Origin: Rhodothermus profundi
GTDB lineage: Bacteria > Bacteroidota > Rhodothermia > Rhodothermales > Rhodothermaceae
NCBI RefSeq assembly: GCF_900142415.1
Contig: NZ_FRAU01000003.1
Coordinates: 1 to 64,000 of the forward strand
DNA: 64,000 nt
Direction of reading: 5' to 3'
Below, one piece after another: positions 50,516 through 55,999 of this stretch. The translations under genes and the position numbers were made by a program. The notes under the pieces are model-generated. The model ran no database searches and had not been told where the DNA came from. It saw only the letters and a list, made by a program, of their open reading frames with translations. Position 1 is the stretch's first letter. Every line of letters starts with the position of its first letter.

Positions 50516-50835
50516 CAAAGTTGACGCTGTAGTATCACGCGTTAACTTTTTCCGGTCGGGGGACTGAAGTCGCCTCGGAAAACCATTACGCATCTAAAAA
50601 TGGGAAGGAGGTGGAAGATGAGCGCGTCGCTTCAAAGCTAAGGGCTGTCTTTCGAATTGGATCGTATTGCACAAATACCTGATTTATTGTAAATTAATGC
50701 AGAATCCTTCCCACTGCGTGCGGACTTGATAAGGCCTGTCTGAGGCGTTGGGAGGGAGCGTTGTTCACGGGCATTATCGGAGTGATCCGCACCTCTCCTT
50801 CGCGTTTCCCTGAGGACCAGATAAAAGAAGGAATC
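50516..50835. other. 320-base gap between tRNA-Lys relic and HAF gene
   Basis: The region becomes AT-rich toward 50690 and probably holds the promoter of the HAF-repeat gene. A 7-codon frame (50618-50641, encoding MSASLQS) has a strong AAGGAGG ribosome-binding sequence, but nothing supports it as a gene. TTTTCCG near 50547 can pair with CGGAAAA near 50576 to form a long hairpin. No further tRNA was found. Confidence 0.4.
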
Positions 50836-52191
50836 ATGTTGAAAGCCTTTGTCCTTTGCCTGTTTTGCGGAGTGGTGTTAGTGGAAAAGCTGCAGGGACA
50901 GTCCATTATCTGGTTGGGAGTATTACCGGGTGGTGCAGAAAGTCATGGCTACGACGTCTCGGATAACGGTGTGGTCGTGGGAAGCGTTACATTCCCACCC
51001 ATGGGAGATACGCGGGCTTTCCGCTGGACCGCCCAACAGGGCATGCATGAATTCTTATCCGATACGCCCGTTAGTGAGGCTATGGCGATTTCCCGGGATG
51101 GGCTGATTATAGTCGGAGGGGGTAACTTGAAGCAGCTTCCGGAGCCCCACGCTTTTCGGTGGGTAGAGGGCCAGGGTGCAGAAGATCTTGGCACATTAGG
51201 AGGCACCATCAGCTATGCCTATGGAATTTCACCTCAGGGCATGGTCGTAGTGGGCAAGGCCGCCAATGTGCAGGGGCAGGGACGGGCAGTGCTCTGGGAT
51301 TTGAATGCAGCGCCTCTGGCGCCTCGTGATCTAGGCACGCTGGGTGGTGGATGGAGTGAAGCGCAGGCCGTCGTTGTGTTAACCAATCCGGCAGATATGG
51401 TCGTGGTGGGATGGGCTGAAACGGCTTCGGGAGATTACCATGCTTTCCGATGGACCAGCTCTTCTGGAATGCAGGATTTAGGCACGCTGGGGGGAGACTG
51501 GAGTGAGGCGCGAAGCCTTTCGGATGATGGCCAGGTAGTCGTGGGGTTTGCCCGAAATGCCAGCAATCGAATTCGGGCATTTATCTGGACGCCCCAGGGA
51601 GGCATGCAGGACCTTGGCGTTTTACCTGGCTATGACGTAAGCAGCATGGCCCAGGATGTTACAGCCGATGGGAGCGTAGTTGTAGGCTCGTCGCGGGCCC
51701 TTCTGCAGAGTCGTGCCTTTCGGTGGACGGCCACAGGAGGAATGGAGGATCTAAACGTAACCTATGCTGCACTGTTGCAACAGAGCAACTCTGTGCTGGA
51801 GGTAGCCCAAGCGATTTCTCCAAATGGTCGCTATATTGTAGGATGGGGAATTAATGGAGCAACGCAGCGTAGAGAAGCTTTTTTGCTGGATACTGCCAAG
51901 CTGACGACAGTTTCCAGCGAAGTACCTGAAGCGTCTGTACAGCTCTGGGGATTTCCCAATCCCTTTCAAACGCGGATACATCTGCACTGGAGCGTGCCGA
52001 CACCAGCTTCAGGAAGGGTGGTCGTGTACGATCTATTAGGCAGAACCGTTCAGGTAGTAGCTCGAAGTTTCTGGCCAGCAGGAACCTATCGGGTGATTGT
52101 GCACCCAGCCGGATGGGCGGCCGGCGTCTATGTAACCTGTCTGGAACTGCCACGCAGTCGTACATGCCGCCTGTTCCGTTACCGGCCCTGA
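50836..52191 (+). CDS. Secreted HAF-repeat protein with type IX-like sorting domain
   Basis: The product is 451 residues from ATG 50836 (AAGAAGGA about 6 bases upstream); an in-frame TTG at 50761 is not supported. A signal peptide (MLKAFVLCLFCGVVLVEKLQ) is followed by tandem HAF-type repeats of about 50 residues containing motifs such as HAFRWTSSSGMQDLGTLGGD and AFRWTATGGMEDL, each with a G-x-V-V-V-G strand. These predict a beta-propeller-like fold at the cell surface. The C-terminal 85 residues (FPNPFQTRIHLHWSV, VVVYDLLGRTVQVV) look like a type IX secretion sorting domain. The function is unknown. It starts the accessory-looking block flanked by tRNA-Lys sequences. Confidence 0.83.
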   Translation: MLKAFVLCLFCGVVLVEKLQGQSIIWLGVLPGGAESHGYDVSDNGVVVGSVTFPPMGDTRAFRWTAQQGMHEFLSDTPVSEAMAISRDGLIIVGGGNLKQLPEPHAFRWVEGQGAEDLGTLGGTISYAYGISPQGMVVVGKAANVQGQGRAVLWDLNAAPLAPRDLGTLGGGWSEAQAVVVLTNPADMVVVGWAETASGDYHAFRWTSSSGMQDLGTLGGDWSEARSLSDDGQVVVGFARNASNRIRAFIWTPQGGMQDLGVLPGYDVSSMAQDVTADGSVVVGSSRALLQSRAFRWTATGGMEDLNVTYAALLQQSNSVLEVAQAISPNGRYIVGWGINGATQRREAFLLDTAKLTTVSSEVPEASVQLWGFPNPFQTRIHLHWSVPTPASGRVVVYDLLGRTVQVVARSFWPAGTYRVIVHPAGWAAGVYVTCLELPRSRTCRLFRYRP

Positions 52192-53476: not shown

Positions 53477-55810
53477 ATGCCACGCTGCATGTATATAGGG
53501 TTTGTGGTGCTGGGGCTTGTGCAAGGTTGTAAGCCCCCCCAGGAAAACCTGCCGCCGGCACCGGGTTACGAAACGATAGCCCGTCGGCTGGAAGTCGCCA
53601 TTCGTTACGAGCTGGACGACAAAGGCATCCCGGGCTTTTCCATCGCGCTGGTCGACGGCGACCGCATCGTATGGGCCCAGGGGTTCGGGTATGCGCACCC
53701 AGACCGGAAGATACCGGCCACGGCCCGGACCGTCTACCGGGTCGCCTCGATTTCGAAACTGTTCACCGCGCTGGCTGTGATGCAACTGGTCGAGCAGGGC
53801 GTGCTGGATCTGGACACCGACGTGCGCACCTATCTGCCTGACTTTCACCCCGAGGATTCGTTTGAGGCACCCATCACGCTGCGACAGCTCCTGTCCCATC
53901 GATCCGGACAGGTGCGCGAACCTCCCGTGGGCCATTACTTTGATCCGACCGAACCCTCCCTGCAGGCGACCGTCTACAGCCTGAATGAAACGCGACGGGT
54001 CTATCCACCGGAAACGCGCACAAAATACTCCAATGCGGCCGTTTCGGTCGCAGGATTCGTGGTGGAGCAGGTGACCGGGCGGCCCTTTGCCGACTATGTG
54101 CAGCAGGCCCTGCTGGAGCCTATGGGCATGCGCTCCAGTGCGTTTACACCTCGTCCCGAACTGCAGCGCCGACTGGCCACGGGATACATGTGGACCTATG
54201 ACGGGCGTCGTTTTGAAGCGCCTGTTTTTGAGTTAGGCATTCTGCCGGCTGCGAATTTGTATACCACCGTCACTGATCTAGGACGTTTCCTGATTACGCT
54301 CTTTCGGAAAGGGGAGACCGAGCAGGACACGCCGATCGTTACGCCGGCGTCGCTGGAAACCATGTGGACGATTCAGTACGCCGACTCGACCCAGACCCAG
54401 GGCTTTGGGCTGGGCTTTTACCTCTCGCGTTTCCGCGGACACCGCCGCTTTCAGCACAGCGGGGTCATGTACGGCTACGCCTCGCGGGTTTATGGACTAC
54501 CGGATGTGCAACTGGGAGTAGCCGCCGTAGGTACGCTGGACGCCACCAACGTGGTCACCGACCGCCTGGCGGAATATGCGCTGGATCTCCTGCTAGCCTA
54601 CCGAGAAGGACGCCCGCTACCGGACTATCCGCGGACAGAGCCGGTGACCGAAACACAGGCGCGGCGCCTGGCCGGACGCTATCGCCAGGGCACGCGCTAT
54701 CTGGACCTGTTTGTGCAGGACAGTACCCTGTATGCCCGCCTGGGCGAAGTGGTAGACCGCGTGCGTCGGCAGGGCGATACGCTGATCGTCGATGGCCGCC
54801 TGACCTACGGCCTCCGCTGGCAGATAACCGACAGGGGACTGCAGGCCCCGGACGGTACCACCTGGGAACGAGCAGATGATCCGGTGCCGGCACCGATGCC
54901 AGAGCGCTGGCGCCCTTATATCGGGCGCTACGGCTGGCCGCACAACACGCTCTACATCCTGGAGCAGGATGGCCATCTCTACGCGCTGATCGAGTGGTTT
55001 TTCTATTATCCCTTGATCGAAGTTGGACCGGACGAATTCCGCATGCCGGATTACGGCCTCTACATGGGAGAGCGGGTCGCTTTTGTCCGTACAACGGATG
55101 GGAGGGTGGCCGGCGTGCGCATCGGCGGCGTTTTCTGGGAGCGCTGGCCCGAAACCGATACGCTGTTTCGCATACAACCGATCCGGCCGGTCGCTGAACT
55201 GATGCAGGAAGTGCAATCCCTGCAACCCCCCACCGAAACAGGCCCGTTTCAGGAAGTGGAACTGGTAGATCTGCAGCAGTTGGATCCTACAATCCGACTG
55301 GATCTCCGCTATGCGACGGCCGACAATTTTCTGGGGACGCCACTCTACCGCACAGCACGTGCCCTGCTGCAGCGGCCGGCAGCCGAAGCGCTCGTGCGCG
55401 TCCAACAACGACTGCGTCGCCTGGGACTGGGGCTCATCATCCATGACGCCTACCGCCCCTGGTATGTCACCTGGATGATGTGGGAGGCCACGCCCGATAG
55501 CCTGCGCCATTTTGTGGCTGATCCTGCCCATGGCTCTCGGCACAACCGGGGATGTGCGGTGGACGTTTCCCTGTACGATCTGAAGACGGGCCAGCCCGTC
55601 GAAATGCCCAGCGGCTACGACGAGTTTACCGAGCGCGCCTATGCCCATTATCCGGGAGGCACGCATCGGCAACGATGGTATCGGGAGCGCCTGCGCGAGG
55701 CCATGGAAGCCGAAGGCTTCCGCGTCTATCCCTGGGAGTGGTGGCACTACGACTGTCAGGACTGGCAGCAGTATCCCCTGCTGAATTTTCCGATTGAAGC
55801 AGCTCCATAG
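53477..55810 (+). CDS. Lipoprotein fusing a serine beta-lactamase/PBP fold to a VanX-type D-Ala-D-Ala dipeptidase
   Basis: The 777-residue product has a lipoprotein signal (lipobox LVQGC, Cys18). Residues about 30-380 are a class C beta-lactamase/DD-peptidase-type domain with SISK (Ser91, Lys94), YSN (Tyr184, Asn186) and HSG (His327). A beta-rich linker covers about 390-580, with lipocalin-like strands as often follow this family. Residues about 585-777 are a zinc D-Ala-D-Ala dipeptidase of the VanX/DdpX family: DLRYATADNFLG, HDAYRPWYV, zinc ligands in GSRHNRGCAVDVSL, and the final WEWWHYD with catalytic Glu and third ligand His. Both halves act on D-Ala termini of peptidoglycan, which suggests stepwise turnover of cell-wall peptides in the periplasm. 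No vanH or vanA is nearby. Confidence 0.9.
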   Translation: MPRCMYIGFVVLGLVQGCKPPQENLPPAPGYETIARRLEVAIRYELDDKGIPGFSIALVDGDRIVWAQGFGYAHPDRKIPATARTVYRVASISKLFTALAVMQLVEQGVLDLDTDVRTYLPDFHPEDSFEAPITLRQLLSHRSGQVREPPVGHYFDPTEPSLQATVYSLNETRRVYPPETRTKYSNAAVSVAGFVVEQVTGRPFADYVQQALLEPMGMRSSAFTPRPELQRRLATGYMWTYDGRRFEAPVFELGILPAANLYTTVTDLGRFLITLFRKGETEQDTPIVTPASLETMWTIQYADSTQTQGFGLGFYLSRFRGHRRFQHSGVMYGYASRVYGLPDVQLGVAAVGTLDATNVVTDRLAEYALDLLLAYREGRPLPDYPRTEPVTETQARRLAGRYRQGTRYLDLFVQDSTLYARLGEVVDRVRRQGDTLIVDGRLTYGLRWQITDRGLQAPDGTTWERADDPVPAPMPERWRPYIGRYGWPHNTLYILEQDGHLYALIEWFFYYPLIEVGPDEFRMPDYGLYMGERVAFVRTTDGRVAGVRIGGVFWERWPETDTLFRIQPIRPVAELMQEVQSLQPPTETGPFQEVELVDLQQLDPTIRLDLRYATADNFLGTPLYRTARALLQRPAAEALVRVQQRLRRLGLGLIIHDAYRPWYVTWMMWEATPDSLRHFVADPAHGSRHNRGCAVDVSLYDLKTGQPVEMPSGYDEFTERAYAHYPGGTHRQRWYRERLREAMEAEGFRVYPWEWWHYDCQDWQQYPLLNFPIEAAP

Positions 55811-55921: not shown

Positions 55922-55994
55922 AGGTCCGTAGCTCAACTGGTAGAGCAGCGGACTCTTAATCCGCGGGTTGGGGGTTCGAGTCCCCCCGGACCTA
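55922..55994 (+). tRNA. tRNA-Lys (CTT anticodon)
   Basis: A complete cloverleaf is present: acceptor AGGTCCG/CGGACCT, D arm GCTC...GAGC, anticodon stem GCGGA/TCCGC with loop CTCTTAA (anticodon CTT at 55955-55957), T arm GGGGG-TTCGAGT-CCCCC and discriminator A55994. CCA is not encoded. A strong terminator follows. A decayed relative lies at 50376-50515. Confidence 0.96.
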
Positions 55995-55999
55995 CCCTC

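Follow-up and report, generated by a model that had tools for sequence, protein, structure and literature searches.

Among described enzymes, three D-stereospecific serine peptidases of family S12 come closest to the N-terminal part of the protein considered here. Pab87, the CubicO peptidase of Pyrococcus abyssi (2QMI), has an S12 domain followed by one lipocalin domain and is itself a cubic octamer. It is a D-aminopeptidase preferring D-Ala-p-nitroanilide over the L form, and also a DD-carboxypeptidase that takes the terminal D-Ala off muropeptides, and it acts at both peptide ends (PMC2651629). The D-aminopeptidase DAP of Ochrobactrum anthropi (1EI5) likewise combines an S12 domain with barrels; MlrB, which was modelled on DAP, cleaves linearised microcystin (PMC11070527). 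The substrate of the DL-peptidase Lip3 (9SN1) is a lipopeptide, syringafactin, in which it cuts DL bonds (PMC13188892). Pab87, DAP, and Lip3 have no M15 domain. The described counterparts of the C-terminal part, VanX (1R44) and DdpX/PcgL, are single-domain proteins of the M15D fold; the substrate of VanX, unlike that of VanY, is the free dipeptide (PMC6403190). S12 domains joined to wall-degrading enzymes occur as GH3 (NagZ-type)-S12 and S12-DUF1343 fusions (PMC2605481), in which the partner enzyme differs from the one described below.

The window, a stretch of 64,000 nucleotides from Rhodothermus profundi, contains one stop-free frame of 777 codons (53477..55810; the frame and its parts listed below are on the + strand), which encodes an S12 peptidase, a predicted double lipocalin-like barrel, and an M15D dipeptidase in a single chain. 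The first-pass annotation had proposed that two enzymes are fused in one lipoprotein, and a Pfam search indeed found both PF00144 and PF01427 in this frame. The export signal (53477..53530), a hydrophobic segment followed by the lipobox LVQG-C18, fits the proposed lipoprotein as judged from sequence pattern and hydrophobicity rather than from a trained predictor; not every relative has a lipobox. The S12 serine peptidase (penicillin-recognising) domain spans residues 43-370 (53603..54586; PF00144, E 1.3e-69, 235 bits against a cut-off of 27). Its motifs are SISK with the catalytic residues Ser91 and Lys94 (S91-I-S-K94; 53747..53758), YSN (Y184-S-N186; 54026..54034), and HSG (H327-S-G329; 54455..54463), the middle residue of which varies in relatives (HGG, HAG). 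The M15D D-Ala-D-Ala dipeptidase domain covers residues 593-762 (55253..55762; PF01427, E 1.5e-37, 130 bits against a cut-off of 27; VanX 1r44, E 8e-25). It contains the Zn ligands His689 and Asp696 (H689...D696; 55541..55564), corresponding to VanX H116 and D123, and the EWWH motif (E754-W-W-H757; 55736..55747) with the catalytic Glu754 and the Zn ligand His757, corresponding to VanX E181 and H184. Thus, the motifs of both enzymes are intact and lie where they had been placed. A conserved connector (residues 560-592; 55154..55252) leads into the M15 domain and also precedes stand-alone M15 homologues, the matches of which start at ∼560 of the query. The gene is flanked by a methyltransferase gene on one side and a tRNA-Lys/metal ABC permease pair on the other; the tRNA-Lys (CTT) lies directly after it, at 55922-55996. 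Elsewhere in the window (50761-52191), a secreted HAF-like-repeat protein is encoded whose C-terminal domain, judged by eye, resembles a type IX sorting signal.

The ∼170 residues between the two enzymes (∼390-556), which had been overlooked earlier and have no Pfam match, are predicted to form two small lipocalin-like barrels, barrel 1 at residues ∼392-466 (54650..54874) and barrel 2 at residues ∼476-556 (54902..55144). Structure prediction had been proposed with the first-pass annotation, and AlphaFold2, run on the alignment of 39 fusions, returned a confident model of the whole chain (pLDDT 93, pTM 0.89); folded alone, the middle region scored similarly (pLDDT 92). Structural comparison matched this region to IS11 (Z 12.1), Ulm16 (11.8), SurE (10.3), DAP (10.2), and Pab87 (9.9), and DAP was also its best Foldseek match (E 2.4e-6). 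True lipocalins scored lower (Z 4-5.5) than the barrels of these S12-family enzymes. The two barrels are not significantly repetitive in sequence (local score 34, against a mean of 25 and a maximum of 44 for shuffled sequences). In the predicted model, the S12 domain is therefore followed by lipocalin-like barrels, as in D-peptidases of the DAP/Pab87 kind.

Comparison of the larger unit pointed the same way. The nearest solved sequence was Pab87 (2qmi, E 1.6e-39; structural Z 39.8). Lip3 covered residues 28-558, from the S12 domain through both barrels (Z 38.7, rmsd 3.1 over 422 residues), and DAP was matched by Foldseek with E 4.5e-28, albeit at low identity (19%). As far as the model can tell, the S12 half groups with the D-stereospecific peptidases Pab87, DAP, and Lip3 and not with true β-lactamases; among its structural neighbours, those that share the extra domains are for the most part D-peptidases, which tells against the β-lactamase reading given at first. 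The class C β-lactamase profile (NF033085) scored 71.2 bits against a cut-off of 415, and AmpH, among the better S12 family matches with 91 bits, also stayed below its curated cut-off. The M15 half had been called VanX-type, a label that was not upheld: the VanX equivalog (NF033115) demands 320 bits, and the domain scored 95. By profile score it is nearer to DdpX/PcgL (NF007557), the best NCBIfam match, although 154.3 bits is still below the cut-off of 176. The M15D fold, the Zn ligands, the catalytic Glu, the Arg, and the dipeptide-binding residues of DdpX/PcgL and VanX are retained in the fusion, and the domain may work like DdpX/PcgL despite the sub-cut-off score.

The fusion is not a product of sequencing. 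A genus-mate (G006, also recovered as L036) encodes the entire protein at 88-89% identity, and the search for other proteins with both domains found ∼50 distinct, independent full-length fusions, which rules out the joining of two genes by a sequencing or assembly error. In a codon comparison with the genus-mate, dN/dS was 0.12 for the S12 domain, 0.15 for each barrel (1 and 2), and 0.13 for the M15 domain, values that indicate purifying selection on each of these parts. Among the best 80 loci of a scan through GTDB genomes, at least 39 carried the fusion in a frame of full or almost full length. The record labels (Rhodothermota, Planctomycetota, Gemmatimonadota, Ignavibacteriota, Calditrichota, KSB1, Acidobacteriota, and Bacteroidota) amount to at least eight named phyla, with many carriers labelled Planctomycetota. 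Most of these records are metagenome bins, in which a given phylum label can be mistaken; the wide spread of the fusion holds regardless of any one label.

Within lineages, the gene is patchy. A near-full-length match was present in 10 of 394 sampled genomes of the window's own phylum. Presence in close relatives, on which the first-pass annotation had made its proposal depend, was found in part: two of the seven genus genomes carry the fusion, but the other five have neither the gene nor any M15 (PF01427) protein, which indicates that it does not serve a core recycling step. The window copy is an accessory gene. In one genus genome without the fusion (G005), the methyltransferase gene adjoins the permease, and in three (G002, G003, and G004), tRNA-Lys adjoins the permease. 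The stretch between methyltransferase and metal ABC permeases varies among the genus genomes and is likely a variable spot. None of 424 phage records matched more than 80% of the query, nor did any plasmid reach 80% coverage. A tree of M15 domains included 50 distinct sequences from fusions, with one protein caught by its long open frame (L033) counted as stand-alone. Fusions and stand-alone proteins were strongly clustered yet interleaved, requiring at least eight label changes, of which well-supported branches force one. Several stand-alone M15 proteins of Ignavibacteria retain the second barrel, their match beginning at residue ∼471, and share an upstream esterase with the fusions of that group; in Ignavibacteria, stand-alone and fused forms look as if a single locus had lost or gained domains.

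Conservation was counted on the alignment of 39 fusions. Positions aligned to VanX Y21, Y35, R71, S114, H116, D123, D142, E181, and H184, whose roles we take to be those assigned in the 1998 VanX structure, were invariant in all 39. The S12 site was slightly less constant, with SxxK in 36 and YxN in 37 fusions; a few members thus have a broken S12 site. A crude pattern and hydrophobicity test detected a signal-like N-terminus in 39/39 and a lipobox pattern in 16/39. Two divergent full-length fusions from genomes of the same taxonomic order (L013:1501-3714 and L014:1501-3711) appear as paired pseudoenzymes: SxxK is changed to AVAQ or SVAQ, the M15 His and Asp are replaced, and the E of EWWH is K or R. 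Both sites were lost together, as might be expected if both activities serve one purpose.

Most fusion loci, that of the window included, have unrelated neighbours that are not conserved. Across phyla, no conserved operon was found around the fusion, only lineage-local synteny (e.g., in Rhodothermales and Ignavibacteria). Some relatives have neighbours related to D-amino-acid metabolism, which is supporting, not decisive: these bait genes were chosen after looking, and the count of near and far baits is no statistical test. An amino-acid permease lies 60 bases downstream of one fusion (L062), and an epimerase-like gene lies near another (L061). The most telling cases are relatives in which the two halves are separate proteins. 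In Gemmatirosa, a row of genes encodes S12, an M19 dipeptidase, M15 (with half of the barrel region), an amino-acid permease, and a D-aminoacylase, with M19 and D-aminoacylase identified by eye from sequence. A stand-alone M15 gene is followed by an FAD oxidase gene of the DAO family (L091). S12-barrel proteins without M15 (Nitratireductor, Ensifer, and L078) are encoded near peptide ABC transporters, an enolase-family dipeptide epimerase, an aminotransferase, and an M55 peptidase. The window's genome also encodes NamZ, an S66 carboxypeptidase, two D-aminoacylase homologues, and several DAO-family proteins; thus, the surrounding chemistry exists there.

Two loci with fused D-aminoacylase-like enzymes add to this support, and other arrangements were seen in passing. 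One 1338-residue frame in a Gemmatimonadota bin (L047:6252-10268) joins a D-aminoacylase-like amidohydrolase to S12 and M15 and is preceded by two further S12 genes; the absence, by eye, of a signal peptide between the amidohydrolase and S12 speaks for a true triple fusion, albeit in a single metagenome bin. Directly upstream of another S12-M15 fusion lies a D-aminoacylase-like amidohydrolase-S12 gene (L051:1-2571). Several Rhodothermales have an NCS2-type permease gene (xanthine/uracil family) downstream of their fusion (L049:6665-8443, also near L057 and L072). Another S12 gene of the window's genome is arranged head to head with the gene for a D-aminoacylase homologue (G000:C3:179306-182032; L002 and L151), and a 980-aa open frame of this genome with an S12 match may be a fusion of the GH3-S12 or S12-DUF1343 type.

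From domain order, conservation of both sites, export-like N-termini, and the predicted fold, we infer that the protein is probably an exported, lipid-anchored two-site peptidase that scavenges or recycles D-amino-acid peptides outside the cytoplasm, chiefly peptidoglycan stem peptides. Residues 1-560 would be a unit of the DAP/Pab87/Lip3 kind: a D-stereospecific acyl-serine peptidase of family S12 whose two barrels probably limit it to small peptides. The M15D domain, afterwards or in parallel, would split D-Ala-D-Ala or similar D-dipeptides, and the resulting single amino acids would be taken up. The two activities had been described as chemically consecutive, which does not hold as stated: an S12 DD-carboxypeptidase frees D-Ala, not the dipeptide D-Ala-D-Ala that an M15D enzyme splits, and the two reactions therefore need not follow one another. 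They would do so only if the S12 half freed D-Ala-D-Ala or shorter D-peptides; otherwise, the two sites would work in parallel on a mixture. A single-chain D-peptide machine, in which the S12-double-lipocalin unit frees D-dipeptides such as D-Ala-D-Ala and passes them on to the M15D site of the same chain, and to which a third enzyme (an N-acyl-D-amino-acid deacylase) is fused in some lineages, is conceivable, if rather doubtful. Counted against scavenging are the mostly unrelated neighbours, the absence of the gene from five of the seven genus genomes, the few broken S12 sites, the loss of both sites in L013 and L014, and the fact that S12 relatives include esterases.

Other readings explain part of these data. 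The protein could remodel the cell's own wall, with the S12 half as a DD-carboxypeptidase or endopeptidase that controls cross-linking or the amount of pentapeptide, and with the M15 half disposing of D-Ala-D-Ala, like AmpH and PcgL. Both are among the better family matches, and Pab87 has DD-carboxypeptidase activity, but AmpH and DdpX/PcgL alike stay under their curated cut-offs, the gene is accessory in its own genus, and many carriers are labelled Planctomycetota, the wall of which is thin or reduced; this explanation is unlikely. Less likely still is protection against, or destruction of, D-amino-acid antibiotics, in which the S12 unit would cut lipopeptides or other nonribosomal peptides like Lip3, and M15 would finish small D-dipeptides. 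Lip3 is among the three best whole-unit structural matches and MlrB, modelled on DAP, degrades linearised microcystin, but no gene for resistance or biosynthesis was identified next to the fusions, and the VanX-like residues for small D-dipeptides are retained throughout.

Resistance enzymes exist in both folds and the motifs are intact, on which a VanX-like intrinsic glycopeptide resistance or a β-lactamase activity could be based. The first-pass annotation had considered resistance by removal of D-Ala-D-Ala. VanX depletes the precursor pool of the cytosol, and a VanX counterpart would be a cytosolic protein encoded beside vanH/vanA-type ligase genes. The window copy has a methyltransferase gene, tRNA-Lys, and metal ABC permease genes as neighbours instead, and the export-like N-termini of all 39 aligned members would separate the protein from that pool. 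The carriers are also Gram-negative-type bacteria, which are mostly shielded from glycopeptides. Together with the low profile scores, this leaves a glycopeptide or β-lactam resistance gene unsupported and very improbable; there is no sign of a resistance function. It is about as hard to believe that the S12 half is in practice an esterase or amide hydrolase fused to M15 by chance. IS11 (7spn), a top structural match, is a thermophilic esterase with a similar barrel, but the fusion is retained across phyla with both sites conserved, and the best-matching barrel-bearing homologues mostly act on D-amino-acid peptides.

The first-pass annotation had not recognised the arrangement as a standard architecture, and it proved unusual: no account of an S12-M15 fusion was found in the literature searched, and it is missing from the 2008 survey of S12 domain architectures (PMC2605481). 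The architecture is real, widely conserved, and undescribed in that literature; the two families are known, so it is not categorically new. In such genomes, a gene annotated as β-lactamase or VanX should not be taken as a sign of antibiotic resistance. Retained with both sites in many phyla, the fusion acts as a "Rosetta stone" that links the poorly assigned S12-lipocalin-like-barrel hydrolases to D-amino-acid peptide metabolism. The substrate of these hydrolases becomes directly testable, and the family is a source of possibly thermostable, D-specific peptidases. If a single-chain D-peptide machine were true, it would represent an unrecognised extracytoplasmic route by which bacteria of at least eight phyla eat the D-amino acids of walls or peptide antibiotics.
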